Shown: positions 28,150-47,114 of the stretch, piece after piece
How the letters are laid out: each line of letters opens with the position of its first letter
Numbering within the stretch: position 1 is the first letter of the stretch
Origin: Gracilaria domingensis
Lineage: Eukaryota > Rhodophyta > Florideophyceae > Gracilariales > Gracilariaceae
Length of the DNA stretch: 64,000 nt
Assembly (NCBI GenBank): GCA_022539475.1
Contig: VCMS01000020.1
Location: forward strand, 186,001-250,000
Reading direction: 5' to 3'
Program-made: the position numbers and the translations under genes
The notes under the pieces: generated by a model
Database searches by the model: none
What the model saw: only the letters and a program-made list of their open reading frames with translations
What the model was told of the DNA's origin: nothing

Positions 28150-29637
28150 CACAACCGACGCTAGCGTCTTTCCCGTCACCACGGATGTAGAAGGACACCT
28201 GGAAAAATTGGTTAACCAAGATGGTAACGGTAGGCCGGAAGGCCATGGAAAAGGCTCAGCTTACGTACAAGCGTAATTTCGATCGCCGAATTCGCGGTAC
28301 CCCAGTGTTGGTCGAGCGCAACAGCTTTGTCTTCCTTCGGAAGGATTATTATAATCCTGACAAGGAAAAGAGACATAAGCTCTCCCCAATCGCTGATGGA
28401 CCATATCGCGTCATTTCCGTCAATCCGGATACCGTCGTACTCGACATTGATGGGCGTCATGAACGAATCTCGCGCGACCGCGTTGTGCCCCCCCCCCCAA
28501 CGCCACCCACCGCAACCGGACCCACCTCAACCAATACCCAATCAGGGGATCCTCAACAGGAGACAGAACCGTCAACAGCCGCTACACTACCGTCGCGCCT
28601 GGCGATTCTTCCGCACCCGGATGGAGGATTAATTGATCTACCTACAGCAGGTACTTATGACCACAGAACTGAACTTCCTACTACTTGGACGAATTCCAAC
28701 GACTCTGCACGAGTATTTACAAGAGTAACCCCCCACCCCATCTCCTGATGGAGCCCGTGGCGCCACCTAAGGAGGGGGAGGATACCGCAGCTGCTGCGAA
28801 TGGCACTGACGCTCCGGTGTCGCCCGGTTCCCCAACCACGGGAAATGTGATCCACACTGACAACCCAGTCGCTCCCGTGGGAGAATCTAGTGGCACAGTT
28901 GCCTTGTCGCACCCCAACCGTGAGGACTCCGCCGTATCGGTCTCCGTTACCACGGAACGTGCCCGCGAGAGGCGCGACGCTGCCGCAGAAGCAGCTACCC
29001 ACTCTGGGACCTCTAACCGCTTGAACTCGCGTATCCGCGCTGAGAAGCATAGCCGAACTGTGAAAACGGTTTGCGCTGATCCGGACAAGGCGCTGCACGC
29101 GGAAGAATAGCATTGCAACCCTGAAATAGGAAGCCTCGTGAACGAGTTAGGCTGAGTATTACCACTCATTATGGATTCCCTTGTGGGATTTTTAACGCTT
29201 TCTTGGAAGCCGACACTCTACAGTGTGAACCACATCGCGTGTGGAAACTTGGAACTCCGCCACCACTGCAAGAAGTGCAATCTCCGTGACACGGGGCCAC
29301 AGAACCAGGCGCGTGCCACGCGACGCACGTTACAACGTGAAAAGCCCTAATGAGCGGTCGGCGACCTTTCGCGAACGGATGGCCGAGCATGGCACGCGCA
29401 CGATTGTCGTGGTCGCCAATCTGTGGCGTAGAGCCAATCAGAGCTCTTGGCACAAGCCCCGTGGACCAGGTGAACCGCCGCCCTGCCAAGGGAGTGCCGT
29501 ACGCACCTCCGTCACCGAAACGGTTATCCCCGTGAAGGCCGGGAGATTCGTCAACCGGAAGTACTACCGTTTGTCAGTCTCTCGACTCTCGTCGAATAAC
29601 GTGATACCGGTGGACTCGTCTTATTGAGAGCTTTGCA
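28150..29637 (+). pseudogene. Integrase C-terminal region and extended tail of the chromovirus
   Basis: After another frame change the reading at 28221-28748 shows the GPY/F-like module (ADGPYRVISV, about 28396) known from chromoviral integrases, then a Pro/Thr-rich linker including a C-homopolymer at about 28489-28498 that may itself cause slippage. Further frames (28685-29110, 29241-29627) continue a low-complexity tail with no recognisable domain. I infer that the tail links integrase to the distal chromodomain. Confidence 0.55.
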
Positions 29638-29825
29638 ACTACCTCTCTAGCTCGAGGATAGGACGCGTAGGACGCGAGTTACAGTACGGCCGCCACAGCG
29701 GAATGCATGGAAAATCGCCGAAGTAAGCCCGTCTCCAACGCTCGGGAAGATTCACCTGCGTGATTTTAGGCAGCTACATAACCTCTCCACGTGAAACTGC
29801 GTCAAGCAGGAGTGACACATACGCC

Positions 29826-30059
29826 ATGGAGTCCCGCGAACGGGAAGTGTTCCCACAAGAATTGGTTATCTAACGCATCGTGAGTCACGTCGTGAACCCC
29901 GATGGGGAGACTGAATACCAAGTTCGTTGGTACGGATACTCCCCTGAGGAGGATACTTTCGAGCCGATCAAACATCTGCCTCGATCGAAGGTTCTCGCCT
30001 ACTACCAGCGCAAGCGCTTACCGCCACCGCCAAACTTGGACGCAGCCCAGGTAGGGTAA
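29826..30059 (+). pseudogene. Chromodomain of the LTR retrotransposon
   Basis: From ATG 29826 (one TAA at 29871) the frame reads RIVSHVV, then EYQVRWYGYSPEEDTFEP and IKHLP, ending at 30059. The Y-x-V-[KR]-W-x-GY-x-x-x-x-x-T-[WF]-E-P pattern is the chromodomain signature, with Phe in place of the usual Trp before Glu-Pro. In chromoviruses this domain follows integrase and can steer insertion to marked chromatin. The frame is too short and broken to be called automatically. Confidence 0.8.
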
Positions 30060-30377
30060 CAGTACTACTGTGCCGCGAGGTGAACCGACGGGCCCACTTG
30101 TGGGAGAATAATTGATGGTATTACCAAGAAGTTTGGGTTGTTCCTACGGAAGGAAGTATCGAAGGGATGAAAGAAGAAAGATGATTTCCGTCTAACGGAC
30201 TTCGATTTATCGGAAAGAAGCGAACTAACATCTAACGGTCCATGTGAACATGTCGTGAAGCTACACGCGTAACGGAGAACCGTATTGGAACGATGGTGCG
30301 CCAAAGGCATTGAACCGTAATCCGGTTACGTCGGTGTTCTCGGAAGTGGAAAAGTGAGTGTTAGTTGTGGAATAGTT

Positions 30378-30389
30378 GCTAGTTTAGGC
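30378..30389 (+). repeat. Left terminal inverted repeat of the nested transposon
   Basis: GCTAGTTTAGGC, complementary to 45148-45159 and preceded by GTT at 30375-30377. The AACTAGC core is the same motif that is reiterated at the right end. Confidence 0.65.
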
Positions 30390-30739
30390 CCTGAAATGGG
30401 CGCGCGAGGGGGTAGGCCGCGCTGGCACCCAAAAAATTAACAAAATTTGGAATAATGTATTCCACTTTACGTAATTTTTTCTTCAGTTCCTCTAGTTTTT
30501 TAGCAGGTTCCGTTTGCCTTCAACCAGAACTGCATCCTTTTCCAGGAACCTCTCCGTTTATTTCACTCGCGCTAGTTTTCCTACCGGTTCCATTCAGGAA
30601 CACAGTGCACATCCCAACAACTTCCCCACCATACCCGTTCCATGCCACACGCACTCAGCTCCAGGGACCCTCAAACCAACTGAAGCACACATCAAAACAT
30701 TTTACTCATCACGCTTTTCAGTCTCCGTATCCTCAAACG

Positions 30740-31564
30740 TCATCTCCTAAAAGTTTTGCGCGCAGCTCTGCCCATTCTCCTACACGCGCCTCCCTCCCAT
30801 ACGGCTCCCCACGCCCCCACCCTTTTATCCTCCTGCTCCTCCAGAGTCCTCTCCGCCAGCAGCGCCCCTTCGTTCTTCTCAACCCTCGCCACCCCTCTCC
30901 TTCTCTTCTTCAAACGGCTCCACCCGCCCTCTTCCTCACCACCATCAACATCCCTCTTGTTCCCTCTACCACTCTTCGGCATCACCGGCGAACCTTGCCT
31001 ACCACCTCCCGCCGCCCCCTTCAAGAACCCCTTCATGTCCATCACCTGTCGCATCAGCCCCTCCAGGACTTCCACCCTCCCCTTCAACTTCCTATTCTCC
31101 TCCCTGACATCAGCAACCTCCTTCGCCAAACACTCTACCATCCCCTCACCATGCCTCTTCATCTCCATCCTCACCACCTTCAACCCTCCTCGCACGGTAG
31201 ATATCACCTCCAGCGATACTCCATCCTCAGAAACGCTCAGTACAGCACCTCCCATCTCTACCACCTTATTCCTCAGAAAGTCATCCACCTCCTCCTTCAC
31301 CCCAATCCCCATCAACTTCATGCGCTCCTTCATCTCCTCCGCAAACCACTTCGGCGGCGGTGCTCCCTCCCCACCCCCACTCCCCATCTCCATCCCAATC
31401 CCCAGCTGGCTCAAGTGCACCGCCCTCCTCTCACCCCCCGCCTCAGCCTCCCCTACTTCCTCTTCCAAAGGCGTCCCCGATATCTCCCTCACCACCTCCT
31501 TCCTCTCAAGCAGCGCCAAGAGCTCCTCGTCCTTCACATACCCATTTGACATTACGCAGTACAC
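30740..31564 (-). CDS. Coiled-coil, basic-tailed protein (hypothetical)
   Basis: An uninterrupted 274-codon frame; the open frames on the opposite strand are Pro/Ser/Thr-rich and look like shadows. The N-terminal half is acidic, a leucine/valine heptad-like segment (about residues 155-195, around VREENRKLKGRVEVLEGLM) predicts a coiled coil, and the C-terminal 80 residues contain clustered Arg/Lys (LKKRRRG). No known domain is recognised. As the last gene at the left end of the nested transposon it is probably cargo or an accessory DNA-binding protein. The start could be at residue 6. Confidence 0.55.
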   Translation of the reverse strand: MYCVMSNGYVKDEELLALLERKEVVREISGTPLEEEVGEAEAGGERRAVHLSQLGIGMEMGSGGGEGAPPPKWFAEEMKERMKLMGIGVKEEVDDFLRNKVVEMGGAVLSVSEDGVSLEVISTVRGGLKVVRMEMKRHGEGMVECLAKEVADVREENRKLKGRVEVLEGLMRQVMDMKGFLKGAAGGGRQGSPVMPKSGRGNKRDVDGGEEEGGWSRLKKRRRGVARVEKNEGALLAERTLEEQEDKRVGAWGAVWEGGACRRMGRAARKTFRR

Positions 31565-31972
31565 GAACGAGCGCGTTCTTAGACAAAATACAACAGCGCG
31601 AATTGTGCCACGAAAGAAAACGCGATTCCAACGACCAGGATCCGGACCCCCACACAGCCCACGCGCATGCCCTTTTCGTCGGAAATACTTTCATCTCGTT
31701 TTCACCCCAACGCACTCCCCCGTGGACACTCAATAACCATCCAATGACCATCCCTACGCCTCGAAACCCCTCAACGTGTACCACCCCGCTCCAAACCATA
31801 CTTCTTCTTCTTCAGTATGGTTCACTAATCCTGATTGCGAACTAGTAGGAAAACTACACAAGTACTTTTCTCTCACGAAGGGCAAAACTACACGACAGGT
31901 AACTTTCTCTCCTGAAAAAGGCCAAAATCTTTGACGGTCACTGCTCGAACCATACGGTACTCATCTATATGG
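31565..31972. other. Intergenic region, nothing recognised
   Basis: Between two minus-strand genes of the nested transposon. It contains TTCTTCTTC-type low complexity near 31800 and a GGCAAAACTACAC...GGCCAAAA near-repeat at 31880-31925, but no gene. Confidence 0.35.
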
Positions 31973-33196
31973 TCAGGGCTTCACACAACAACCAAAGATA
32001 AAGCTCCAGAAGCCTCTCATATCCCCCAACAACCTTTCTTTCTTCAAACTCAACCAGTTCAATCTTAAACAAACCTCTCTCTCAGTAACACCCTTCAATA
32101 AAAAAAGATGTTTACTAAAATGTATTCTTTCTACCATACAAACTTTACTTACAAAGCGACGCCGCTCTCTTCCATTCACAGCATAAAGCCCTTCCCACAC
32201 ACTTCTTACTAACGCCCTTTGTTGTTGCTCAGCAACCGAATACATTATAATTAGAACAACAAAAACACTGTTTCCCAGTACTGGCGGTACCCCACGGCTG
32301 ATACGTTTCTGTAAACTCTCCGAAAATGAATCGCTCACCAATTGCGCACTCACAATGGGAACAAATCTCTGGAAGAACGGGTTCACCGCCTTTCCAATCC
32401 CGTTCATGAACAGTATTGACTTCAATGTGCTCCTTCCGCTCTGCACAACTATGTGAAACACATTGGCCACTGTTCGCCTCTCTTGCGGCAAATCCATAAC
32501 ATGATTCGAAACATTCCTTGTGCTCCACAGCACAAGCCATCTCTGCAGACAATAGTTACCCAGTCCCAACAGAAACCCTCCAGAAGAAAAGGCAACAGTG
32601 TTAATCTTAATCGCATTTAAAAGCGTTCTCCCTTCCGGAAAGAAATGAAAACTCAGAGCAATGCAAATGTTCACAAACAACAATCCACTTTGCGTAAACA
32701 CATTAAATGCATTCAGTGACACAGCCCAAATCCCAAGCCGACGTTCAGATTGAAAGTCCTCTGTCGCCACCGAACCAAACAACCCCTCGGGCATACATTG
32801 CAAACCATTTATAAACAACACATGCGATAGCGATTCTATTACCGCTACCGTCACGACCTTTCATGTATACGCGCTCACAGAACCGTCCTCCGACATAAGC
32901 ACATGCACAACTGCCGGTTTTATCATTCCATACAACAAAAAAAGAGCAAGCATCCACAACACACAATACAACAACAACGAATCCCCACAAATCTGGCCAC
33001 CCAGTCGCTTCAGGCAACCATGCTTCTCCCTTTCATGTGCGGAACGAAGGCATCTGGTGAAGTGCACCTTACCAGACAAAACGGGATAGAAATCCGGACC
33101 CTCCAACAACATTTCTTCACTATCAACATGCTCTGAAATGAACTTGCACAATTCACTCATCTCTCTTGCCAACCCCCAGTTTCGTACGTCCCTCAC
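31973..33196 (-). pseudogene. Multi-spanning membrane protein with an in-frame TGA
   Basis: Two frames (33196-32861 and 32854-31973) are in the same register, separated by a single TGA at 32863-32861. Read through, they give about 407 residues. Hydrophobic segments occur near LLLYCVLWMLALFLLYGM, near GLLFVNICIALSFHFF and near SVFVVLIIMYSVA, suggesting at least three membrane spans, with a basic C-terminus. I do not recognise the family. The TGA may be a point mutation or a sequencing error. It lies inside the nested transposon and so is probable cargo. Confidence 0.5.
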
Positions 33197-33243
33197 ATTT
33201 CTCTCAACTGCCCCCTTCCTGTTACTCTGTCAAACGTTAACAA

Positions 33244-33849
33244 TTAATCTCTGTTGAATTTAAATTCAATTCTATCAGGGTACAATAGGAGCTGCACTTT
33301 ACATGGCACCCCAACCCCTGTACCTGCACTAGGTAGCATGAACATGGATTCTTTCGCCCTGTACATTGCACCATCTATTCTAATCTGACTTTTATTGCAG
33401 AGTCTGGTTTCTATTGATTCACCCAAACAAGATAAACAGAAATGCTTATATGGATACATTTTGAAACGGTATATCTCCACACACCCATTGTTTGCAAACC
33501 AATCGCCCTTTTATGAATACATTCTCCTCTCATATAAGACCTCAACACCTTTTTGGAGCACACAATACTACGAATTATAGTGGTCACCATAAGCTTTAAC
33601 GTTGTTCCAAAACCAGTTTCTCCAAAAAAACCGTACGGAAAGTCCAAAAGGAAATATTACATCATCCAACCGCTTACCTCTCGAATTTCACTACGCTCCT
33701 GCCATTTTCATATCTAAACTTCTGCCTACTTTCCCATTTTTTATGAAATATGTTCCTATGAGTCATATACTGCGAACCTTTACTCTTCGATACTTTTTGA
33801 CAGGAACCACTGTTTCACGCCCCCGTTCTAGTAAGTACTCATAAATCAT
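33244..33849 (-). pseudogene. Broken frame upstream of the membrane-protein gene
   Basis: From ATG 33849 one register stays protein-like to 33244, with about five stops and no shift needed. Readable pieces include VVPVKKYRRVKVRSI, IGTYFIKNGKVGRSL and KHFCLSCLGESIETRL. It ends 47 bases before the next frame's ATG, in a different register, so it may be the N-terminal part of the same decayed gene joined by a frameshift, or a separate dead gene. No family recognised. Confidence 0.4.
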
Positions 33850-33964
33850 GTTGCCATCAGAAAGGAACTGGAGACTCCTGTGTCTCAAACTCTATTACAC
33901 TAGCCACCCAGTTCAACCCACATGACATTGCCCTCCCCTCCAAGAGCCAAAGAGAATCCTTTCA

Positions 33965-34972
33965 ATGCCCATCATCATGAGCTCCGTAGATATGGAACCG
34001 ATCCTAGCGACAGAACTACGTCGATCAACTTCGGCCGTAGTCGTCGGGAAAGGACGCATAGGCACATTGCTTCGAGATTTCGGTCATTCAGGAGACATTC
34101 ATGTGTCCACCGCAGGTTACATAAGCATGAAGCATCTACCTCTAGGTTCGATCTTTCTATGTGTCAGAACATCTGCCCTACAAACTGTCATTGAGTGTAC
34201 TCCTCCAAAGCGGCGAGAAGATCTTGTGTTCATTCAGAATGGCAACATTCTCCCGCTTCTTTGTAGACATGGTGTACAGGAATGCACAAGGTCCGTTCTT
34301 TACGTTGCCGTGCCCATAAAAGGCGCCACGCCAGAGGACAGCATAACCCTCTACAGCCCTCTGGGTCTCACAGTTGCGACAGGAAAGTGGGTTGACGCAC
34401 TCGCGGAACGGTTCTGGTCAGCAAATCTCTCTTGTCATATTGTATCGGGTGGAGAATTTACGAGGGCGTACTATGAAAAACTTGTATGGATTTCGGCGTT
34501 CAACCTTGTCGGAGCCTGTCATGGCTACACATCAATGCATGACGTAGCTACCGTGCATAAAGCAGTAGTGTGTACCATGATGAAGGAGCTCCTCTCCATT
34601 GTGACCGAGAAGACAAACATTGAATTCAATACGGAGGAGGTGGTTCAACGGCTTTTGGCCTACGGCAAATTGCTTGTCAAATTCAATACGTCCATCTCCG
34701 AGATGAGTTTAAGGAACGCCTTCTTCTCCCAATATTCTCGAGAGGCGAGAGCTGCAGGAAAGGTTGACCCCGCACCATATCACACAACTTATATCAACGT
34801 CTTCCTTCACGACATTCTGCAACCCCTTTATTACAATACACATGAGCCAATAAAAACAAAAAAACACCTTTACCTTCACGCGTATGCGCTTTTAGAACTT
34901 AGGTGCCGTACGCCCCGTATAAACCCAAATCCGCAGCCGGCACAAGACAAAACACAAACATACTTTATATGA
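33965..34972 (+). CDS. Ketopantoate-reductase-like NAD(P)-binding oxidoreductase
   Basis: 335 codons, intact. The N-terminus has a dinucleotide-binding loop (VVVGKGRIGTLL, about 25-36), then FIQNGN (89-94), which matches the QNG segment of ketopantoate reductases. A C-terminal helical half begins EKLVWISAFN, with Lys172 and Asn180 at positions where that family keeps catalytic Lys and Asn. Bacterial KPR enzymes reduce ketopantoate to pantoate, but many eukaryotic homologues have unassigned substrates, so I name only the fold. It is the sole plus-strand gene in the left half of the nested transposon and has no transposition role I can suggest; it is probably a captured host gene. ATG 33977 is an alternative start. 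Confidence 0.72.
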   Translation: MPIIMSSVDMEPILATELRRSTSAVVVGKGRIGTLLRDFGHSGDIHVSTAGYISMKHLPLGSIFLCVRTSALQTVIECTPPKRREDLVFIQNGNILPLLCRHGVQECTRSVLYVAVPIKGATPEDSITLYSPLGLTVATGKWVDALAERFWSANLSCHIVSGGEFTRAYYEKLVWISAFNLVGACHGYTSMHDVATVHKAVVCTMMKELLSIVTEKTNIEFNTEEVVQRLLAYGKLLVKFNTSISEMSLRNAFFSQYSREARAAGKVDPAPYHTTYINVFLHDILQPLYYNTHEPIKTKKHLYLHAYALLELRCRTPRINPNPQPAQDKTQTYFI

Positions 34973-35094
34973 AAGTTAGTTCAGAAGAAAAGCCAAGCAA
35001 CGACAAGACAGTAGGTACTCTAACCTTCCAAAACCCTTGGGCGTCCTACAGGTTCGAATTCTTCTTCCTCATCTTCCTCTCCCTCCTCAACTTC

Positions 35095-38000
35095 TTACTC
35101 AACTTCCTCTTCCTCTTCCTCCTCCGCCTCCATCTCGGCGTCCTCTACCTCCACTTCCTCGTCGTTATCATTCCCACCACTCTTGTTTCCAGCCGTAATA
35201 CCACTCTTGTCCCTGTCCTCCTCTACGAACTCTTCTCCTTCCCCAAACTCATTCTCCTCCTCAAATTCAGGATTGAATCCCTTCACACGATGAACTGCAT
35301 CGGGTAGCTTGTATCCCTCTGGCACCATGTACTTGTGATACCTCACCATTACGTCTATATCTCGAATGGCATCCTTCGAAGCGGCTCCCGCATGTACCAC
35401 ATCTCCCCGCCCAATGAAGATCGAGAATGGGGGTACCATCACCTTTTTCATCGTATGTCGTGACTGCGAGGTTCGCTTAGTTGCGTCCAGAGCTGCAATT
35501 CTGTGACTCCCTTCGCATATCCAAAGTGGAAATGGGTTCTCCCCAGACACCATGAGAAAGTAGCCGGGGTTCTCAGTCTCCAACGTTTCCAACCTGACTA
35601 ATCCCTTGAAGTCCGTGTGCAGTGTCTGGCGCGGACACCCCTTCGTTGCGGCGAGTAGTCGACCTCCAGTCCTGGGCGCATACATGCTCTTCGAGGTTGG
35701 CATCCTGTTGTTCCAGAGTTGCAATGCAGCAACGACTTGTCCCATTCTAGCATCCAGGAGAGCCCTCTTCCGTACCGCCCACCTCAGCCCCCGGTCCATC
35801 TCAACCCTGTCGACAAGCCCCAGTCTGGTAATCATATATCGAGTTTGAGCAATCAGTCTATGTTTCTCATCCTCCGTCAATGAACCAGTGTTGATGATAG
35901 GCATCCAATACTTTCTGTTCCCTTCAATTCGGAAGTCTCCTTGAGCGAGAACGTCGTCTTCGAAATGCTTCAGCAACCTTCCACAAACATCACCAGAATC
36001 CTTTCTCGTCCAAAGCCCCTCCATATCCGGGATGGTCGCATCTGTGGCAAATCCGTCCAGTATACAAAACCCTTTCTCCCGCACTTCATTGCGTTTCTGC
36101 GTGAGAAACTCCAGCGCATACTCATCACGCTCCACTGCGGCCAACCATAATGCATTCTCATCACTTGTACCAGCGGGTCGATTGGTCGGCAACGGGAAAC
36201 CAAGCACAGGTCCTTTTGTAGTTCCCAGCTCCTGGTGTCTCGCCCTGGAGGCATGCCAATACACAGCGTAATGGACACTTCGTAAATCACCCTCACTCAA
36301 AAGCTCAGACCGATGTCCTCCAGCCATGTGATTCGCTCTCAGCCATGGCTCCCTATTGGCAATGTGATTCTGTCCCTCCCTTCGCCTTGGACAGACAACC
36401 GTCAAGTTACACCATGCCGGGTACTCCCCTCCATCATGCGGCTTTCCCTTCTCCAGTAAGCTTTCCTCTTCTGGAAGCTCTTCTGGATTCTCATCATCGA
36501 AACCCAGGCGGCTTTCCGCTTCACTTTCCTCCATTTCTTCATCATCGAGAAACGCGTCCTCGTCCTCCTCCAACACCATCAGCACAACCCCCTTCTTGCT
36601 CATAGTCTTTTCGTTCATTTCCCTCATAAGGTCATCGACGTCCATCCTCTGAAACAAGTCCACCAACTTGGATGGAAGAAATAATTTGCGCTTCTTACGG
36701 GGGGGTTGGGATGCCTGTATCTCTCCGTCAGACTCCATCTCCTTCTCTATTTCTTGTAAAGGATCAACTGAACCTCCTTTAGCTTTCACCCGCTTCTGTA
36801 ACCCACCCTTTCCTGCGGCGGAGTTGGTGCTTGACTTAGCTGCCACTCTCTGACTCCTTCGCACACCCGGGGGTCCAGCACCTCCCTCTAAATCAACCAC
36901 GGAACCATCATCATCATCAGTTTGCTCTTTGTTCTTCGTGGTTTTCGAAGATGGCGGCTGAGCACTTCCAGAACCAGGCTTCTTTTTGGATGCTGTAGGA
37001 GTTTGAATGCCGAAGAAAGAACGAAGCCTATTTCTTACCATATTGGCGCTTCGCTGGATCGATTCTTCGCGAACAGCTCGACGGGGAAGGACCCTCATAT
37101 TGACAGCCTGCCCGAAAACAAACTCCGAAACCGGAATCAGAGGACCAGTATCTCCAGAAATTCTGAACGCTTCCTTGAAGAAGTCCTCAAGGATCAGCTT
37201 CTTTTCAGCACCGACCGTACGGGCAGCCCGATACATTGCAAGTTCCCTATCAAAAAAGAACGTGCGCACATCTTCGAATCTGCCCCAAGCATAGGTCTTG
37301 GGATCCTTCACTACAAGACGGCGTATGCATTCCATAGCGAACCAAAACTCGTCAGCATCCAGTTTGTATAACTCTGTGTATGAGAAGTGAGTGAGTACTC
37401 TCTTTGAATTATGCTCGCACATGTGCTCAAACTTCTCTACCATACCAGGAGTACTCGCGAGCTTTAAAGCAATGTCTGCATACCGCACGTACTGCTTCCT
37501 CTCAGCCCCCGATATCAGATTACTGCTTTGCAGACATTGTGCAACCTGTTCAGATTCGAGTTCTGACGCACATATTGAATGTTCACATTCAAGAATCTTA
37601 ATGAGACTCACAGTAGAGTGAACTTTGTCTGCAAACCTCATCTTCAACAAAGCCTCACTCTCCTCATTGAGGACTGCGCCAAGCCTCAACACCTCGCTCG
37701 CCGTGACATGCTGCCCATCCGTTCTTCTCCAAAGCATGACTCTCACACTCTTGGTTATAGTCTTCCATCGAGGGTCCTTGTCATGCTCTAGAATATGCAG
37801 CAATGCCATCAAACGGTGGTGTCCATCCACTAAAACGCAGTCCACAAGCACTCTGTCCTCATCATTCAACGCATTCTTCATGTCAATCTCACGAGCAACT
37901 GTCACACTCATCAGCCCAAGCGCACCAAGCAGTCCACGCTTCCTAAAGTTCTCAATCAAGTCTCCCTTGTGAATTTCACTCATACCGCGGAGGGTCTGCT

Positions 38001-38649
38001 CCGGTTTCTTTATGCGGGTGATATCGATTGTTACTGCCCGCTGAGTGTAGTCGGTGAGGTCAATGGAGCTAACATTGAAGTCCAAGATATTCTTCTTACG
38101 ATTCGTTTCCGTCCTCTTCGGTCTCTTCACCTCCACAACGTCTTCATCCGAGCTGCTGATGACATGAATGTTCTCCTTCACATTGCCCAATTCAGCAGTC
38201 GAATCATGCTGAGGCTCAGGCTCCGCTGGACCTGCAACAGATGCGGGCTGTGCCTCCGCTGTTGCTGGTTGGGGGTCCTCACGCTGAGGGGCACTGCGAG
38301 GTCTGAGCATTTCCCTATCCCATGCGTACGTCCCGGCTCTGAGTATATCATCCAACGTCGCAGGGGGTCCCTCGACCCCTCCAAACGTATAGGGATAGGG
38401 TAGAGTTCCATCACCTGTGATTTCAGTGAGATAAATCACGACACAACCGGCTTCCAGCTCAGAACCGTGAAGGGATGTCTTCAAACTGCCATTATCGTTA
38501 AACATAGTCGCATGGCCAACAACCTCTTTGGCCCCATTTTCTAGAACGACGAGAAGATCCACCTCCACACCAGGAATTATCTGTTCGCTAGACTGGGATG
38601 CCGTTCCCGTGGTGGTCGTACGGCGAGAACTGCGGCGCGCGTTGACCAT
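35095..38649 (-). CDS. ParB-like domain fused to a 2-oxoglutarate/Fe(II) dioxygenase-like domain
   Basis: 1184 codons, uninterrupted. Residues about 205-290 contain a ParB/sulfiredoxin-type segment with LVDGHHRLMAL (273-283). A helical region follows to about 560, then basic and acidic linkers (SKKKPGSG, RKKRKLF, EEDEDAFLDDEE). The C-terminal part (about 840-1130) has QTLHTDF (His1011, Asp1013), GDVVHAGA (His1086) and MVRYHKY (Arg1103). This HxD...H...R spacing fits the metal and 2-oxoglutarate ligands of double-stranded beta-helix dioxygenases. The protein ends in a long Glu/Asp tail. The set suggests a nuclear nucleic-acid or protein hydroxylase with a ParB-like nucleotide-binding module. 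TET/JBP-type enzymes ride on related transposons in fungi, but membership in that family is not shown here. Confidence 0.7.
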   Translation of the reverse strand: MVNARRSSRRTTTTGTASQSSEQIIPGVEVDLLVVLENGAKEVVGHATMFNDNGSLKTSLHGSELEAGCVVIYLTEITGDGTLPYPYTFGGVEGPPATLDDILRAGTYAWDREMLRPRSAPQREDPQPATAEAQPASVAGPAEPEPQHDSTAELGNVKENIHVISSSDEDVVEVKRPKRTETNRKKNILDFNVSSIDLTDYTQRAVTIDITRIKKPEQTLRGMSEIHKGDLIENFRKRGLLGALGLMSVTVAREIDMKNALNDEDRVLVDCVLVDGHHRLMALLHILEHDKDPRWKTITKSVRVMLWRRTDGQHVTASEVLRLGAVLNEESEALLKMRFADKVHSTVSLIKILECEHSICASELESEQVAQCLQSSNLISGAERKQYVRYADIALKLASTPGMVEKFEHMCEHNSKRVLTHFSYTELYKLDADEFWFAMECIRRLVVKDPKTYAWGRFEDVRTFFFDRELAMYRAARTVGAEKKLILEDFFKEAFRISGDTGPLIPVSEFVFGQAVNMRVLPRRAVREESIQRSANMVRNRLRSFFGIQTPTASKKKPGSGSAQPPSSKTTKNKEQTDDDDGSVVDLEGGAGPPGVRRSQRVAAKSSTNSAAGKGGLQKRVKAKGGSVDPLQEIEKEMESDGEIQASQPPRKKRKLFLPSKLVDLFQRMDVDDLMREMNEKTMSKKGVVLMVLEEDEDAFLDDEEMEESEAESRLGFDDENPEELPEEESLLEKGKPHDGGEYPAWCNLTVVCPRRREGQNHIANREPWLRANHMAGGHRSELLSEGDLRSVHYAVYWHASRARHQELGTTKGPVLGFPLPTNRPAGTSDENALWLAAVERDEYALEFLTQKRNEVREKGFCILDGFATDATIPDMEGLWTRKDSGDVCGRLLKHFEDDVLAQGDFRIEGNRKYWMPIINTGSLTEDEKHRLIAQTRYMITRLGLVDRVEMDRGLRWAVRKRALLDARMGQVVAALQLWNNRMPTSKSMYAPRTGGRLLAATKGCPRQTLHTDFKGLVRLETLETENPGYFLMVSGENPFPLWICEGSHRIAALDATKRTSQSRHTMKKVMVPPFSIFIGRGDVVHAGAASKDAIRDIDVMVRYHKYMVPEGYKLPDAVHRVKGFNPEFEEENEFGEGEEFVEEDRDKSGITAGNKSGGNDNDEEVEVEDAEMEAEEEEEEEVE

Positions 38650-38967
38650 GGTATGTTACAGATGCTGAGTAACGACGCTGAGGTGTGTGTTTCAATTGCT
38701 TCTGCGCACGACTTACAATGGACACCCCCGCTTTTGGCAGCTCCTTCCAATGCACTGTGCGAGAAAAGAATTCACCTGATAGTAACACCTCAGTTACGCT
38801 AAAGGTCAGCGTTATAACGAGAATACCCGTGACACGTAAAGGATCCGCTCGCGAGAACTTAGTTTGAATACAACCGTTAACGCGAGTTCTTGTTCAAGTA
38901 CTTGAACATGGCTTCATTTGTATTACATACGTCCGTTCATGTCCAGTCGCGTGAAAGGCCCTTTTAG

Positions 38968-39330
38968 CTACCCCTCGTACGGGGAACGGAACATGAAATC
39001 AGATCGTTGATTTTTCCCACCCGCGGTCCGAAAGTGCCCTGGCCGCCAGGGCGGGCGCGCAGGCGAGTTGGGCACCCCGCAAACCGCACCCGTTTAGATT
39101 TTAAATTTTAATTCTTCAAAAAATCAACGAATTTGCCCACCCGCGGTCCGAAAGTGCCCTGCCCGCCAGGGCGAGCGCCCAGGTGAGCTGAGCACCCCGC
39201 AAACCGCACCCGTTTAGGGGGGTGCCCCACTCGCCTGGGCGCCCGCCCTGGCGGCCAGGGCACTTTCGGACCGCGGGTAGGAAAATCAACGATCTTATTT
39301 CATGTTCCGTTCCCCGTACGAGGGGTGTAG
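38968..39330. repeat. Foldback element with about 115-bp arms
   Basis: The left arm begins CTACCCCTCGTACGGGG (38968) and the right arm ends with its complement at 39330. Both arms continue through AACATGAAAT, ATCGTTGATTTT and then a CCCGCGGTCCGAAAGTGCCC module. A third copy of the module in direct orientation (39136-39218) sits in the centre. It is strongly structured and noncoding. Confidence 0.75.
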
Positions 39331-39410
39331 ACGCCGCCCCGGACGCAATGGGACACGTTGCAGACCCGTTGCCACCACGCATACCTTGCGTTCAAAAAAT
39401 CGTTCATTCC

Positions 39411-39557
39411 GCCCACCCGCGGTCCGAAAGTGCCCTGGCCGCCAGAGCGAGCGCCCAGGCGAGTTGGGCACCCCCCTAAACGGGTGCGGTTTGCGGGGTG
39501 CCCAGCTCGCCTGGGCCCCCGCCCTGGCGGCCAGGGCGCTTTCGGACCGCGGGTGGG
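39411..39557. repeat. Second GC-rich inverted repeat
   Basis: The direct module (39411-39480) abuts an inverted module (39477-39557) through ACGGGTGCGG, and both are flanked by facing CGTTCATT / AATGAACG. It uses the same module as 39016-39281, indicating local duplication or repeated insertion of one family. Confidence 0.7.
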
Positions 39558-39821
39558 CGCAATGAACGGTTGAGTACAAGTTGTACTCAAAGCATTACAG
39601 GTTCCAAGACAGAGCAGCTCAGAATGCTTCTATTTAAACCTGGCAGTTAATTTTGTTGAGATTAGCGGTTGTTCCGCACATATTGCGTCTTCATCGTTCG
39701 CGTTCGTATAAGCGGGTGTTTTCATACCTATTGAGGCTCACGTAATACCGTTCGTGCTCTACGTCTGCTCCTCTCTCCGCAGAAAGCGAGTTTAAAGCCT
39801 CAGCCTAAAGGTGACTACATC

Positions 39822-40073
39822 ATGATGGGCATTACGGACACAGACACCATGCTTCGTTTCTGTCGAACTTCTGACCTCTTTTTCGCGTTAAGAGACGAAT
39901 ACGCCAATGAGGGAGACGCCAGTTCGAAGCCTAGAGACGCTCGTTACCCCGCTATTGTGCAGTATGCCGCCGAGGTATGGTCCAATTCGTCATCCGTAGC
40001 CCATCGCAAGGGCACGCACCCAAGTACTCTGTCTATGTTTGTAACGGGTGAAACCACCTCAAATATCGCATGA
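39822..40073 (+). CDS. Small hypothetical ORF
   Basis: 83 codons, beginning MMGITDTDTML, with a TATTTAAA box about 190 bases upstream. Its 3' end overlaps the end of the convergent transposase gene by about 40 bases. It has no recognisable domain and may be chance. Confidence 0.25.
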   Translation: MMGITDTDTMLRFCRTSDLFFALRDEYANEGDASSKPRDARYPAIVQYAAEVWSNSSSVAHRKGTHPSTLSMFVTGETTSNIA

Positions 40074-42954
40074 AAGCAAATTCGTTGGATATGTGCGGGT
40101 GCGTCTTTGAAGATGTTCTAACAAGTGCTAGCGTGTGAGCAAACCATACTGACTCAGTACCGGATGCGTTTTCATCGTTCCCTTTTACCATAATGGGTGA
40201 GAATTTGGGAGTTCGCGAGGGCCCGAATGCTGGGCACGCAAAAACCCGCTGCTCCATTCTGAAATTCTGCTCTGTCAAGGTGATGTTGTTTGTTACTTCT
40301 TCGTAGTCTTGGAGAGTTGGAGGTATGGCTCCAAGTATAAAAGCGGACTTCACAAAGGAGAGGGTGATATCTTCCATGACATATTCTCCATGTTTTTCTG
40401 AGAGCACTTCTTTTGTAAGATTCACGAACGGTGTGATTCTTGTCTCTCCGATTTGAGATAGTACGGTTACTGTTTCTGAGCAGAACCGTTTTGCAATGAC
40501 GTTGGATAGAACGAAGTCGAACGTGTCTGACGCTGATGATAATATAGATTCGCATTCAATGATATTCTCGAGCTCGATATTGATCCCATCTCTGGACATT
40601 CTGGGCAATGTCTTTGGTGGCGTGATTCGAGATGAAATGTTCTGGCGTGCGTGGAATCTTTCTCTCCACTGCTTCTGTCGTTCTCGATGTTCAATGGATT
40701 GAATTGTCTCTGCCACCCCTGAGGCGGTTCGACGGGAAGTCTTCCGATAGTTTCTTTTGAAAAGCAAATGAGCGTGTTCATATACTGCAGCATCATAGTA
40801 CTTGATACTACCTAGACGACGTATGTCATCCACAATATGGTCTAATAGATGAAATTTGAGTGTTCCAAGCCCAGATGGATGGAACGCTCCCAGAAATTTT
40901 GAGGCATGCTGCTTGAAAGACGTGATGTCCTTTTGTAATGTATCAAGAGCGAGAAAAGTCCATTCTTGTGGCCTATTGTAACGAAAGATAGTAGCCACGA
41001 GATCTGAATACTTGGTGAACACGGTTGTAATCGGTGCTTCCTCAGCTTCCCCGCAACATGTGTCAAAAAAGGCCCCAATAAAAGGGAAGACCATAGCTTT
41101 GTAGTCCTTCGCTTCAAGCATACCTCTTAGACCATCTTTTGTGAATATACCGTTTAGAGACTTTCCCTTCTCTTCTGTTGAAAAATCGATAGTAAGCCCC
41201 GGTGCAGGGGCGTCTCTCTGGATAGCTGCAAGTATAGAGTTGGAATGGTTGAGGACAAGGGTGCGAATGCTCTTAAAAGTTCGAGGGGAACCTGATACAG
41301 CCGTGGTAAACAGCGACTCTGACTGTAGTCGCTCCATGGCCGCTATTTTCAAAAGCCTGGAAACGCCGAGATGAAGGTTGTGCAGGGGTTCGAAAGAGAA
41401 CAGACTGTACGGTGTAAGGCTTGGTATCCAATTCAGAGTGGGATACACTTCTAGAAAGAAATTAACATGCGAAAGCGACTGTGACTGCAATAGAACTTGG
41501 GCCTGGAGCTTTCTTTCTCTCGATTGCCGAGGACGGCGGTTCTGGGCATCCTGTTCGGACTTGGTAAGAAGAGATGAATATGCTGCTCGAACATCCTTGG
41601 TGTGGGTCAAGCTGCGGTCTGCTGCCCCACTGGGGATTGGATTTTGAAGTTTTTCTCTTGGTATCAAGCAACGATGGCATAGACGTTTAGTGAGGGTGCC
41701 ATGTGAGACAGAGAGTATATCCTTGGCCTCTGGGATATCAGCGCAATAACTTGCAAGAATAGGATGGCAGACACGTCTTGTTTCATCGGCCGATGTGAAC
41801 GGTATTCCAGACTTCCAGAGCTGGAGTAGAGGCTTCAGAATAAGCTGCAGAGACTGGTGTAGAACTTGCATTCTTGCTTCTCGAAGGGAAGCCGAACGCA
41901 CAGAAGGCATGCCATCAAACGACGATTCGCTTCGTACCTCCTCTAGTTCTGTTGGTATGTAGGCAACAATAGTCAAGTCCTCGGAGATGCACTTCTGACG
42001 GAGTGTATCTGAGAGGTTGAGTAGGGTTAAGTGAAGGGGATAGGAGGTAACGGAAGATTGCTTTAGAGAGGTAGAAGATTTATCAGTGTAAAGCTGTAGT
42101 AGACCAACAAATGACTCAATTCCGCTATCTTCGATTCTATACCACACGTGCTCAACATCGGAGGAGGCCATGACATGAGAGCTAAGATGGCGGTATACGT
42201 CTCTTGCGAGGCGGGCGGTCATGGGGTGTGAAAGGGTGCCATGCTGGAAGCGCCCGACCTGCGGTGGCTGGAAGAAAGTGTTCTCAGAGTTAGACAGTCT
42301 GAGTTGTTGCAACAAGACGTTCAATGGGTCCTTGGAGTAGAGTTTGGCTCGGAACTTACCGTCAGAGGTGGTAACGAAGCGCTCCTCAAACCCGTCTGCA
42401 GTGGCGTATCGTTGAAATATGGAGTGCTTCAGCTCCGTACAACGCTTGGAGGAAGTGATTGTTTCATTGAACCTCTCTTGGGGAAACGTACGAAGAAGGG
42501 ATATGAGCTCGTCCGCAGCCCTATGGCCTAGGTTCGACGCAACGAAGGCAAGACAGACCACGAGATAGTCCATGTGTAGCTCTTGCAACGAGCTTTCGGT
42601 TGGAGGCGGAGAGGGGGAAGATGCCAAACGTGGTTCTGATAGTGAGCCAGGAGGGTGGGAATCCGTGTGGGGAACGGGTATGTTGGGAGCGGTTTCGGGA
42701 TGAGCTTCGATAGCGGTGGACGGGATGAAAAGAGGCGCATCGTCGGTACGAGAGTCTGAAGGAGACGGTGATGATGGAGGCAGGGGGGTATGGGTGGCTT
42801 TCTGACGCTTGGAGCGTCGTACTTCTGGTTGGGGTGAGGGGGCTTGCCTTCTCTGTGAAAGTCGTCGTTGGGGGCAGTTGGCGATGTGCTGACGCAGAGA
42901 CAGAATGCCCATTGCCCTGTAAGGGCACCCTGGGGCGCGGCATCGGTAAGTCAT
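40033..42954 (-). CDS. Plavaka/TNP2-like (EnSpm/CACTA-group) transposase
   Basis: The frame is open from 43158 (1041 codons). I prefer the ATG at 42954, which starts directly ahead of a C2HC finger (YRCRAPGC...RQHIANC), as Plavaka-type proteins begin with such a finger. Further family-like blocks are LCHRCLIPREKL (about 41670), LHNLHLGVSRLL (about 41360) and, near 40730-40860, KFHLLDHIVDDIRRLG followed by EHAHLLFKRNY, resembling the conserved C-terminal K-x-H...E-x-x-H...K segment. It would bind the AACTAGC end motifs and cut and rejoin the element. No stops or shifts are seen. Assignment is from motif memory; KDZ-type transposases are the main alternative. Confidence 0.65.
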   Translation of the reverse strand: MTYRCRAPGCPYRAMGILSLRQHIANCPQRRLSQRRQAPSPQPEVRRSKRQKATHTPLPPSSPSPSDSRTDDAPLFIPSTAIEAHPETAPNIPVPHTDSHPPGSLSEPRLASSPSPPPTESSLQELHMDYLVVCLAFVASNLGHRAADELISLLRTFPQERFNETITSSKRCTELKHSIFQRYATADGFEERFVTTSDGKFRAKLYSKDPLNVLLQQLRLSNSENTFFQPPQVGRFQHGTLSHPMTARLARDVYRHLSSHVMASSDVEHVWYRIEDSGIESFVGLLQLYTDKSSTSLKQSSVTSYPLHLTLLNLSDTLRQKCISEDLTIVAYIPTELEEVRSESSFDGMPSVRSASLREARMQVLHQSLQLILKPLLQLWKSGIPFTSADETRRVCHPILASYCADIPEAKDILSVSHGTLTKRLCHRCLIPREKLQNPIPSGAADRSLTHTKDVRAAYSSLLTKSEQDAQNRRPRQSRERKLQAQVLLQSQSLSHVNFFLEVYPTLNWIPSLTPYSLFSFEPLHNLHLGVSRLLKIAAMERLQSESLFTTAVSGSPRTFKSIRTLVLNHSNSILAAIQRDAPAPGLTIDFSTEEKGKSLNGIFTKDGLRGMLEAKDYKAMVFPFIGAFFDTCCGEAEEAPITTVFTKYSDLVATIFRYNRPQEWTFLALDTLQKDITSFKQHASKFLGAFHPSGLGTLKFHLLDHIVDDIRRLGSIKYYDAAVYEHAHLLFKRNYRKTSRRTASGVAETIQSIEHRERQKQWRERFHARQNISSRITPPKTLPRMSRDGINIELENIIECESILSSASDTFDFVLSNVIAKRFCSETVTVLSQIGETRITPFVNLTKEVLSEKHGEYVMEDITLSFVKSAFILGAIPPTLQDYEEVTNNITLTEQNFRMEQRVFACPAFGPSRTPKFSPIMVKGNDENASGTESVWFAHTLALVRTSSKTHPHISNEFAFMRYLRWFHPLQT

Positions 42955-43159
42955 GGCCTGGCTCGCTTGGAAGAAAAGAGGAAAAGGAAGGGAGCAGCTC
43001 GTCAAGGAGAAAGGAGAAGTTTGTTGCAGAGTTGGTGAAAGAGAAAGTGAAGGGTGAGAAACGGAGAGCCGGTTGGGGGGAATTATTGCGTGCGCCAGTG
43101 CGGGGTGCATGGAGCATGCGGTGGAAAGGTAACCACGATGCTGTGCGTTCAAACTCAAA

Positions 43160-44640
43160 AACAGGGCTGTTCGAAAGGTTTAAAAATTTTATTCAACACG
43201 TGTACAGATATTAGAGGACGACGGGAGATCGACAGCGGCTGTCCATTTGAGCGGTTGCCCTGCGTCACTGTCTCGTCGCCCTTCTGGTGTTCCTCCGCCC
43301 GAGGGTTCGTTTTCGGATCGTGCGCAGGAGTTGTTCATGCGTGATGTTTTTGGGAATGTGGGGCGAGGTCGAAGTGAGGCTGGGTGGGATGTACATGGTA
43401 AGTGCTACGACCTGTTCGAGCATCGTGTTGACTTGGTTTGTGATGACTAACGTTGGTTTTGTCTCTCTGATGGTGCAGAGAGTTTAAGTATTTGATTTGT
43501 TAGAGTTTTGGGTAATTGAAGAGAGATGAGTGAAGAACTTTTGTTGCTTTCTATAACGAGTGGGTCACTAACAGCAGGGATTTCTGCTTTCTTTTGTACA
43601 GGTTTGGCAGATTTGTTTTGGGAGAATAGTGTTGTCTCACCAGATGTTCTTCACTCCACTTAGTGACTAACAACTGGAGTTTCTGGTTTTCCTTTTGCTA
43701 TACATTTCAGCAGACTCGGGTTGCGAGCATAGTATGTGTCCTGCGACACGTTTTCTCCCTCAACGAGGTAGTCATTCTACTTGGCAGTATGACTACTTTG
43801 TTCAGTGCAAAAATGTGCCGCATGATGCCTCTACTATTCTTCCGCATCGTTTTCCTGTTGGCGGCGAGATGCGTACTAACTAAGTCTCTTTTGCTTTGCT
43901 TTTGTTTCGGTTCATAAGAATATGGAGGGGTGCGAGGGAAGAGGGTGTGTGATGCTGTTGTTTTGCTGCGCGCTGCGTGAGGCTTGCGAATGCTGACTGG
44001 TGTTTATGTTGTTGTCACTATTGCGTACAGAAGACTAGATGGTGGCTTAGCGTGGTTGTACGGGTAAGTGTTGTATTCTTCCGCTTCGTTTTCCTGTTGG
44101 CGGCGAGATGCGTACTAACTAAGTTTTTCTTCCTTTGCTTTGTTTTCGGTTCATAAGGATGTGGAGTGGTGCGGGGGAAGAGGGTGCGTGAAGCTGATGT
44201 TTTGTTGCGCGCTGCCTGAGGTATGGGATTGCTGACTGGTGTTTATGTTGTTGTCACTATTGCGTACAGAAGTCTAGATGGTGGCTTGGCGTGGTTGTAC
44301 GGGTAAGTGCTAACTGTTTTTGAGGTTTTGGCTGATGACAAGTATCTGACGAAGCTTTTTCTCTCTGTTCTGTTTTGGTTCTGTGTTGATGTTTGATGTG
44401 AAGTGTGTTGTCTTGGTTTGCATGGTGGCGGTTGCGAGTCATGCGCGTCGCGACGAGTTGTGTCATCCAGTGTACTGTTTCAGAGTACTCTGGAAGGCAG
44501 GGCTTGTCGCCACTCCTACGAGTAGCGACAAGCTGTGCAGTTCAGAGTACTTTGTATAAGCGTATACCGTTGCACACACCCTGCAGGTGCTGGGAAGGGT
44601 ATGAGATGCTACGAGTGCGATGTGCGAGCGTAAATTAGGA
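43160..44640 (+). other. Region with repeated intron-like signals, no clear protein
   Basis: Upstream of the transposase on the other strand. On the plus strand it contains GTAAGT donors (about 43398, 44063, 44303) and repeated [AGT]ACTAAC branch-like sites (about 43446, 43567, 43665, 43874, 44113), several followed after 25-50 bases by a pyrimidine tract and CAG or AAG. No continuous reading frame links the presumed exons. It may be a spliced noncoding transcript or the 5' part of a decayed intron-rich gene. Confidence 0.35.
43840..44310 (+). repeat. Tandem duplication of about 235 bp
   Basis: 43840-44070 and 44077-44310 are clearly homologous (both contain GGCGGCGAGATGCGTACTAA and TTGTCACTATTGCGTACAGA) with scattered differences. 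Each unit includes a TACTAAC site and ends with GTACGGGTAAGTG, so the duplication copied an intron-like module. Confidence 0.8.
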
Positions 44641-44822
44641 TAGAAATAGTATATAGAATAGGCGCATATGAACCATTAGTAAAGAGCACGATTCACTGCA
44701 GAAGAGGCCGTAAACTAGCCAGAATAGAAAAGCGCACGAGTCTGAGCTACGGGCTATAGTAGTAAAAACTAGGGGCTAAACTCGCAAGAAAGGAAAACGA
44801 GGGAGTTCAAACTGCATTTCTA

Positions 44823-45006
44823 AACTAGCGGAGATGTAATAGTGGCCAGGGTAGCATCCATAGATGAACTAGCAAAGATGTAATACATAGTAGTTCTCCA
44901 TGCACGCGCCAACTAGCACAGATGTAAAAGAGCGTAGTTTATCATGCACGCGCTAACTAGCACAGATGTAATACAGCCTAGTTTATCGTCCGCGCGCCAA
45001 CTAGCA
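44823..45006 (+). repeat. 44-bp periodic subterminal array (AACTAGC motif)
   Basis: AACTAGC begins at 44823, 44867, 44911, 44955 and 44999, exactly 44 bases apart each time, followed by a conserved [CA]A[GC][AT]GATGTAATA-like tail. Looser copies continue at about 44714, 45111 and 45133 and at the terminus (45153-45159). Subterminal reiterations of this kind are transposase-binding sites in CACTA-group elements. Confidence 0.8.
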
Positions 45007-45147
45007 CAGTTGTAATAGCTGCAAGTAAAATTTTGACAAAAAATCTAGAGGAACAGGAGCAGCATATAGCTGTTTTGTAATAGGAGATACAGGGAATTTT
45101 TCAAAAAATTAACTAGCGGACCAGGTGCAAAGTCTAGCGGAACAGGC

Positions 45148-45159
45148 GCCTAAACTAGC
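45148..45159 (-). repeat. Right terminal inverted repeat of the nested transposon
   Basis: GCCTAAACTAGC, exact complement of 30378-30389 and followed by GTT (45160-45162), the right copy of the duplicated target. Confidence 0.65.
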
Positions 45160-45299
45160 GTTCCGGGAACACCGACGTATGAAGGAACTGATATCGAAGT
45201 CGATTTTATTCTAAGGAGAAGTTGTACCGCTAGCTATTGCGGATTGCGTTGGTCGCAGAGCCTACCACAGCCCATCATGGAGGGAACCCACCGTTGGGA

Positions 45300-47114
45300 T
45301 CACTGCCATCCTGTCGAAGGACCGGCACCTCCAGGGTTGGACGGCCCCACTTGGGGAGGCTGACTCGCGAAAGCCTGCGCGCCCAATGCCAACAGCTGGC
45401 CGAGGTCGTACCTATCCGGTGGAACAGGCACCCCAAGTTCGAGGAGTTGGTTGCGCATCGCTATCACGCGAGGGTCAATATTCCCCTGCGAAGGGCCCAC
45501 GCCCCAACTGACAGGAGCAACTGGCGCAGCCGCCCCTCCGGCAACCGGAACTCCTGCGGAAGCCGCCGATGGACCTCTCGTTGCCGGGTCTTCCACAGTA
45601 ACATCCACCATTGGATCGTCCTCCTCTGCTACGGAGTAAAAGTTGTCGGAAAACATGAACCCAATAGGGTGATCGCTCGGAACCACTCGAGGAAGTCCGC
45701 GTAGGACGAGAGCCCGCTCCTTCGGGACGGTAACTCCCTCCCAGGGATCGTAATACACGAAGTCACCGGCACCCGGATGTCTTCGCCCTGGCGAACGGTC
45801 GTAGTGCAAACGAGTGCCCCTGGGGACGTTTTCCGCCGGAACGGTACTCCAATCAATGGAATCGATGAGATCGATAAGGCTGATGATCTCGTTGACGTTG
45901 TTGTCCGAACCGAGCGCGGTGTATAAGTCCAGTGATCTAATCACATTCCGTAACCTCGGAGGCAAATACCAAACAAGGTTCTGGTCGTATGCTTCCCATA
46001 GCATAAACGCGGCAACGGGAGCGGCCCATTCGGCGATGAAGAAAATCCAATACTCCGAGTGCGGATTCGCAATCATGCGTGACCCCACATAGGAGATGCA
46101 CGGAGGCCATTCCGGGAAACACCCGCGTGGTACCTCATAGTGAGCCCACCACGATGGGAGTGGAGCGAATCGACCGGCTAGTGCGTCCGGACGCAAACTC
46201 TAAACCTCCATGTTCTGGTGTGGAATCAGATACCCGAACCGGGATGGCCATTTGCGTTCGTTTCGCAGTCGGTCGAAGAAGCTTCCCTCTCCCGAGGGGC
46301 GATGTAGATATCAGAACTCCGCTCGCCGGATCGGCCTGTTGAACAGGAGAATGTCCGCCGGCATCGCCTCCGGGAAGTTTTCCGCCGCTTGGAAGTCCGC
46401 GAGGTTCGCGCCATACTTGATCTCTCCTTAAGTTCGGAACCGGGAAAGGTCGAACCCGTATGACTCGGGAATCTTCTCGAAGAACGAGGCTCGGTCCTTC
46501 CGAAAGTATGCCAATCGTGCCATAGCCGCGCGCGCTTCATCTAGCGTTTCGTATCCACGGCCGCGCCGTTTCCGTGACAACACGTGAGGTGCGACCGCCA
46601 CGCGGTGTCTCCAATCCCATGAATCCACCATATCTCGGTGCAGGCCGCCAGGCAGCATACCGTTCTCGGTGTATAAGTCCATCAACACACTGTTGCGAAC
46701 CGCTTTCGGGTGAAACCAGGGCGCTCTGGAATAGGCCCAGCTTCCTCCGGTAGTCGGATCTTGAACAAGGAGCGATTCACGCGCTATCCAGCCAGCTGGA
46801 GTCGCCAGCAAGGGCACCGCCTAAGCGGAATTCCACGCCGCGACGTCGATCGGGTTCGGTGTAGTCATGTGATGTTGACTCTGAGGCAGAGGAGCTGAGG
46901 CGAAACCGCCGATATATCCTGTCGCAGGAGTTGCGGGACCCGAAACGTTCGGAGCCCCGGCTTGGGAGTGCTGCTCGTCGCCCTGGTGAGGGTTCATCGA
47001 ATCGTCGGTCGCGGAGGAAACTTCAAGTACTGAATCGTCTGAGTACAGAGAAGTTGGGTGCGCTTGCGCGTGTGTATCGTTGTGACGAGGAACCGGAATC
47101 TCGGATATGTCCAT
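45300..47114 (-). pseudogene. Antisense reading frame of the chromovirus (about 605 codons)
   Basis: From ATG 47114 to 45300 a single register on the strand opposite gag-pol is broken only by TAG (46821), TAA (46428), one TGA near 46312 and one TAG near 46200. Each could arise by C-to-T change from CAG, CAA or CGA. The N-terminus is Ser/Pro/Gly-rich, the middle is protein-like (YSRAPWFHPKAVR, ESYGFDLSRF, EYWIFFIAEWAAP) and the C-terminus is Pro/Gly/Ala-rich. No family is recognised; a capsid-like or nucleocapsid-like role cannot be tested here. It lies between the nested transposon and the 3' LTR, the place where some plant giant retrotransposons carry antisense genes. Confidence 0.65.

Follow-up and report, generated by a model that had tools for sequence, protein, structure and literature searches.

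A giant Plavaka-type transposon in the red alga Gracilaria domingensis carries ordered accessory genes in common with a diverged, more numerous family

What are several genes with no obvious role in transposition doing inside a DNA transposon that itself interrupts a long terminal repeat (LTR) retrotransposon? The question is raised by a 64,000-nucleotide stretch (G000:C20:186001-250000; hereafter the window) of the florideophyte red alga Gracilaria domingensis, whose genome we searched as 77.9 Mb in 680 contigs (78 Mb in print, PMC10388701). We consider it fairly probable that the element is a giant Plavaka-type (CMCT, CACTA-like) cut-and-paste transposon with an inherited set of accessory genes whose probable targets are DNA or chromatin marks. 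An initial annotation had recognized, in a probable alga, an LTR retrotransposon interrupted by a large DNA transposon that bears additional genes, and the Plavaka Pfam match, the LTRs and empty insertion sites all bear this out. Both checks that it suggested, for further copies of the two ends and for empty sites, gave positive results. Features are listed in Table 1.

Other copies of both ends exist in the genome and define the borders. The right end gave 10 matches and the left end 41 (40 scored of 475 candidates); here and below, match counts from genome searches cover scored matches and are lower bounds. Alignments covered 13 other left-end places, L016 and L019 being one place, and seven other right-end loci. 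Ten of the 13 places (11 loci) extend beyond 30378, where the initial annotation began the element, out to 30323-30335, and all seven right-end loci pass its proposed end at 45159, reaching 45175-45183. For L020, L021 and L023, from a more distant family, the BLAST alignment begins only at 30397, and these left ends carry CGTCTGTGTTC at the position equivalent to the terminus. The termini stand in register at 30329 and 45177 as CGTCGG...CCGACG, with unrelated DNA outside: left ends read NN followed by CGTCGGTGTTC, and right ends GAACACCGACG followed by NN, or close variants. Mutations affect some ends (L015 left and L007 right among them), and one flank is common to L013 and L014. The terminal inverted repeat (TIR), starting CGTCGGTGTTC, is matched at 16 of 17 bp; when 17-mers were drawn at random from the window, the best of 200,000 pairs matched at 13. 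The outer 2 bp agree in all three copies with both ends read: TA/TA in the window, TA/TA on C6 and TG/TG on C289. Finally, the left flank of the element has 41 genome matches, and the four read besides its own, all copies of the same retrotransposon family, hold an empty site in which CCGGTTA runs directly into TGAAGG, joining window position 30328 to 45180. Because the ends in register and the empty sites coincide, we place the insertion at 30329-45177, with a 2-bp TA duplication.

The transposase, an uninterrupted frame as initially annotated, matches the Plavaka family PF18759 (E 7.7e-22, 78.4 bits against a cut-off of 26.3). All 26 database homologues carry PF18759 as well, in a search whose scoring was limited to the 7,990 candidates with the most words in common. 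Its N terminus bears what we take to be a C2HC-like zinc finger. D359, D474, C497 and E794 do not vary across 17 aligned sequences, and C494 hardly varies; these putative catalytic residues reproduce the acidic residues and C(2)C motif common to CMC transposases (PMC12730594). Plavaka is a member of the CMCT superfamily with 2-3 bp duplications (PMC12730594), and the TA duplication with its exact empty sites accords with the 2 bp of PlavakaA and the 2-3 bp of PlavakaB. The termini differ from those of both fungal subgroups (TGT..ACA and CATCA..TGATG, respectively; PMC12730594), being CGTCGG..CCGACG here and CGTCTG..CAGACG in the related family described below. The 8-bp Zisupton-type duplication (PMC12730594) that would mark a KDZ element was not found, the duplication here being 2 bp.

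Inside the TIRs, the motif ACTAGC/GCTAGT occurs eight times in the last 500 bp and twice in the first 500 bp, against a single occurrence in the intervening 13,849 bp; the remaining 49,151 bp of the window hold 11. This distribution fits what would be expected of subterminal repeats bound by a transposase, and the previously reported 44-bp periodic end array, which contains the motif, was recovered. The transposase family, the TIRs, the duplication and the empty sites imply a cut-and-paste mechanism. The transposase probably binds the ACTAGC repeats near the ends as well as the 17-bp TIRs, excises the 14.8 kb and reinserts it at a staggered 2-bp cut. In the window, the element landed in a pre-existing LTR retrotransposon, and we infer that it may still be mobile.

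Three of the accessory genes recur in a second Gracilaria family, far more numerous than the subfamily of the window element and hereafter called the large family, whose transposase and ketopantoate-reductase-like (KPR) oxidoreductase are 48-55% identical to the window proteins. At least 44 genome matches to the transposase were found (2,287 first-look candidates), of which 42 lie in the large family at 53-55% identity. The KPR protein has at least 120 matches (114 in the large family, 48-52%), the coiled-coil open reading frame (ORF) at least 141 (130 in the large family, 41-49%), and the ParB-like/dioxygenase-like protein (hereafter ParB/dioxygenase) at least 68, with the large family at 33-46%. 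One member of the large family was read (C218:30497-54242, about 23.7 kb). It encodes a coiled coil, KPR, ParB/dioxygenase (over several frames), transposase, a HAD hydrolase (PF08282, E 1.6e-13) and an N6/N4 DNA methyltransferase (PF01555, E 4.1e-11) fused to SET (PF00856, E 3.1e-8) in two frames; its first ORF matches the window coiled-coil ORF by tblastn at E 5e-26. The methyltransferase-SET (MTase-SET) gene has 110 genome matches (107 scored of 708 candidates), 83-100% identical, with some frames of about 1,055 aa. In the window element, tblastn for MTase-SET and HAD gave nothing better than E 0.16. With these two genes, the C218 relative is arguably the more remarkable of the two elements; it also contains a run of N (C218:40740-43149), which may be an assembly gap.

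Gene order recurs across both families. Counting neighbours found within a set distance, KPR follows the left end on the same strand in 15 of 15 cases (among 40 left ends), ParB/dioxygenase follows KPR on the opposite strand in 8 of 8 (among 120 KPR matches) and the transposase follows ParB/dioxygenase on the same strand in 5 of 5 (among 37), the C6 case probably joining two nested elements; the transposase lies downstream of KPR in 5 of 6 (among 120). A single arrangement links KPR with the coiled coil in 51 of 52 cases and the coiled coil with ParB/dioxygenase in 15 of 15. For MTase-SET, where 68 of the 110 matches entered the counts, one arrangement holds with ParB/dioxygenase (9/9) and with the transposase (7/7), and in only 11 of 15 cases with KPR. 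Since the same order is found in the more numerous relative, the extra genes look like working parts rather than chance passengers. The coiled coil, KPR and ParB/dioxygenase have long belonged to this lineage as accessory genes, being neither recent captures nor host genes.

At least part of the large family spread recently, because its right ends are nearly identical (40 of 41 matches at a rounded 100%, the best 40 of 613 candidates having been scored) and five transposase pairs differ by 0.2-0.8%. Its target duplication did not match in either of two putative end pairs (TT versus AC on C218, AT versus GA on C106), for which mispairing or recombination between copies, or a wrong border, could be responsible. 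A second copy of the window's subfamily lies dispersed over about 42 kb at C6:453.7-495.5 kb and seems to have received an insertion of a large-family element, whose ParB/dioxygenase lies at 470544-473474 and whose left end lies at 479766-479946.

What these genes might do is best approached through the ParB/dioxygenase protein, which the gene model FGB62_20g211 matches at 100% across 71% of its length. At residues about 200-335 it has a ParB N-domain-like fold: ParB N-domains head the rows in both structure searches, with sulfiredoxin and V-ATPase rows ranking below them. Sulfiredoxin and ParB N-domains share the same fold. We do not accept a V-ATPase kinship of this half, as the rows concerned match a helical stretch, and three PDB matches of the N-terminal profile (E 0.15-3.8) were judged chance. 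In the C-terminal half, the label dioxygenase-like refers to the HxD...H...R motif of 2-oxoglutarate/Fe(II) dioxygenases (H1011xD, H1086, R1103), which is conserved in relatives: HxD is present in 8 of 9 sequences, and the distal H and R in 8 of the 8 reaching that far, five of the nine being near-identical large-family copies and the broken C218 copy being excluded. Such enzymes would have a double-stranded beta-helix fold; the predicted model of this half has a pLDDT (predicted local distance difference test) of 30, and the only two PDB sequences matched by the profile covering it (E 0.39 and 2.5) were judged chance, so that we neither claim nor exclude a known fold for it. The protein has no NCBIfam match, and Pfam at E 0.1 found no family at all, TET/JBP included, in it or in P0003-P0005, a search that a very divergent member would escape.

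The second accessory enzyme, KPR, falls in the ketopantoate reductase superfamily by its sequence relation to solved 2-dehydropantoate 2-reductases: its profile (A4) matches 3hn2 at E 3.9e-5 and 3i83 at E 0.001. Its matches to Pfam ApbA_C (0.013) and to TIGR00745 are both below cut-off. P0007-P0010 are relatives at 30-38% identity, and P0010 carries PF08546. That KPR or HAD takes part through a modification pathway has a low probability.

We propose that the accessory genes act on DNA or chromatin marks, because a ParB-like half and an oxygenase-like half are joined in one protein that adjoins MTase-SET in the large family. Most likely, the ParB-like half would recognize DNA and the other half, if it has the enzyme activity that we infer, would oxidize a DNA or chromatin mark, thereby keeping the element from being silenced; the MTase-SET of the large family would fit an element controlling its own marks. 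An anti-silencing role, drawn by analogy with fungal TET-carrying transposons, is a tentative suggestion that we hold at somewhat short of even confidence; for those elements, escape from silencing has been proposed, not tested, as the gain (PMC12730594). Rather unlikely, in our assessment, is a reading in which the substrate of the ParB/dioxygenase protein is not DNA but a histone or some other protein, or in which its role is to regulate the transposase. Many oxygenases with an HxD...H...R motif act on proteins or small molecules, and the C-terminal half was identified by motif only; the ParB-like half, however, suggests DNA binding, and in the large family a DNA methyltransferase adjoins the gene.

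On whether the genes benefit the element at all, the pattern of substitution and decay is informative. Between the window and six large-family copies, the transposase shows proportions of nonsynonymous (pN) and synonymous (pS) differences of 0.32-0.33 and 0.81, and KPR, compared with one large-family copy, 0.325 and 0.76; both genes thus bear signs of selection. Within the large family, five transposase pairs have nonsynonymous (dN) and synonymous (dS) distances of 0.000-0.005 and 0.006-0.019. Two observations point the other way: against the C6 copy the transposase has a pN of 0.028 and a pS of 0.042, and the coiled coil, at 0.33 versus 0.57 in comparison with the large family, gives about equal values in two of four near copies. 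The extra genes could alternatively be captured host or foreign genes that confer no benefit on the element, as would agree with the stops in most other copies of the window's subfamily (KPR in 4 of 5, ParB/dioxygenase in 5 of 5, the membrane-like ORF in 6 of 6 loci) and with a gene content that changes, since the large family has HAD and MTase-SET and the window element is without them. Such passive carriage is nevertheless improbable, given that two families have three genes in common, in order, that their transposase and KPR proteins are 48-55% identical, and that these two proteins are constrained between the families. Inheritance together with the transposase, and the apparent constraint on KPR, make service to the element the most likely role of the accessory set.

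That the locus is instead the remnant of an integrated DNA virus, a thought encouraged by Plavaka-flanked giant repeats beside viral insertions in Amoebidium (PMC11244446), is very improbable in view of the exact TIR, duplication and empty site, the absence of a virus-type Pfam match in the five element ORFs scanned, and viral_contigs scans with two short patterns each for ParB/dioxygenase and KPR that returned no confirmed relative. Least tenable, to the point of being practically discarded, is the initial annotation's own model, in which the element occupies 30378-45159, its TIRs measure 12 bp and GTT is the 3-bp duplication. The repeats GCTAGTTTAGGC and GCCTAAACTAGC exist and GTT flanks both, but they are subterminal and the duplication is TA. 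Homologous ends stopping elsewhere, a refuting condition named in that annotation, and all four empty sites refute those coordinates and leave the element itself standing.

Table 1. Features of the window element and its host retrotransposon (window positions)
Feature	Position	Strand	Basis or remark
Host LTR retrotransposon, RT-RNaseH-integrase order	21180..48175	+	LTRs, target site duplication, Pfam
TA target site duplication, left copy	30327..30328		Copies in register, empty sites
Plavaka-type DNA transposon, 14,849 bp	30329..45177		Copies in register, exact empty sites
Left TIR, CGTCGGTGTTCTCGGAA	30329..30345	+	16/17 match with right end
Subterminal repeat GCTAGTTTAGGC	30378..30389	+	49 bp inward of true left end; initially annotated as TIR
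Coiled-coil ORF, 274 aa	30740..31564	-	Genome matches, tblastn
Membrane-like ORF, about 293-295 aa	31973..32854	-	"Membrane" is the initial annotation's label
KPR oxidoreductase, 335 aa	33965..34972	+	Profile match to PDB
ParB-like + HxD...H...R dioxygenase-like protein, 1184 aa	35095..38649	-	Fold searches, motif
Cluster of direct and inverted repeats, between ParB/dioxygenase gene and transposase	38970..39571		D4, D5, I1-I6
Plavaka transposase ORF, 1041 aa	40033..43158	-	Pfam PF18759
Tandem duplication of a 239-bp unit (two copies), between transposase and right end	43835..44309		Repeat search
44-bp periodic subterminal array with ACTAGC motif	44867..45017		TRF, 3.4 copies, 84% matches
Subterminal repeat GCCTAAACTAGC	45148..45159	-	18 bp inward of true right end; initially annotated as TIR
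Right TIR	45161..45177	-	Copies in register; 16/17 match with left end
TA target site duplication, right copy	45178..45179		Copies in register, empty sites

All five frames of the element (transposase, KPR, ParB/dioxygenase, coiled coil and membrane-like) are open in the window copy. The initial description of KPR-like, ParB-like, coiled-coil and membrane-like ORFs is confirmed, except that the term relic for the membrane-like ORF does not suit this copy, the stops lying in the six other near loci. That ORF has seven loci including its own at 67-100% identity, plus short pieces; dozens of remote matches at 18-27%, with frames up to 485 aa, perhaps represent a separate repeat family. Both copies of the 239-bp tandem duplication are also present in right-end loci L003-L007. 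The repeat cluster at 38970-39571 has arms of up to 147 nt, 93% complementary, and is perhaps a small fold-back insertion.

The surrounding retrotransposon has LTRs (21180-22160 and 47195-48175) that are 93.3% identical across 982 columns, start with TGTAGA and finish with TCTACA, and CTTAG flanks it on both sides as a target site duplication. Pfam matched reverse transcriptase (RT), RNase H and the H2C2 integrase domain, with an integrase core fragment below cut-off. No chromodomain was found by Pfam in the frames scanned, which are split there, and the earlier designation chromovirus is not supported by that search. Two minus-strand ORFs (298 and 129 aa) at 45300-46817 lie within the retrotransposon, antisense to pol, and have no Pfam match.

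The combination of a ParB + HxD...H protein, KPR and, in a sister family, MTase-SET was not found in the open-licence literature searched. Work by Petroll (2025) on Bostrychia is said to discuss giant Plavaka elements. The giant multi-gene red-algal transposon is a known kind, and the initial remark that such a gene set looks undescribed holds only in part: EnSpm families of 16-20 kb with 4-5 ORFs are recorded from Chondrus crispus (Kojima 2013, cited in PMC6431247), and giant red-algal EnSpm elements with accessory genes have been reported (Petroll 2025, cited in PMC12477816). As the citing papers describe them, these EnSpm/CACTA elements resemble ours in host group, size class, CMCT-type transposase and possession of several further ORFs. 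The excerpted text of a paper on Gracilaria sex chromosomes (PMC12502185) contains nothing on these elements.

Among more distant systems, fungal TET+ Plavaka and TET/JBP transposons (PMC12730594) have in common with the window element a Plavaka transposase, a 2-3 bp duplication and a dioxygenase-type accessory gene, whereas here there is no TET/JBP Pfam match, the accessory protein combines its dioxygenase-like half with a ParB-like domain and the termini differ. Sola1-1_Ec32 of Ectocarpus, with its ParB + N4/N6 DNA-methyltransferase proteins (PMC12477816), is likewise a giant algal transposon in which a ParB-like accessory protein is joined to a presumed modification enzyme. The partner of ParB here is an HxD...H dioxygenase-like half, however, and the methyltransferase is a separate, SET-fused gene, which the large family has and the window lacks. 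The Plavaka-flanked repeats of Amoebidium (PMC11244446) are similar in large size, Plavaka transposase and many genes, but many of the genes there encode tyrosine recombinases in tandem clusters, for which the ORFs scanned here gave no Pfam match.

Together, these two Gracilaria families indicate that the accessory genes of a giant algal transposon can be inherited as an ordered set common to diverged families. Within the set, ParB/dioxygenase may be an eraser, and the DNA methyltransferase-SET protein that the large family adds may be a writer. Whether transposons carry an epigenetic toolkit of their own thus becomes a question that is directly testable in a seaweed with many near-identical copies.

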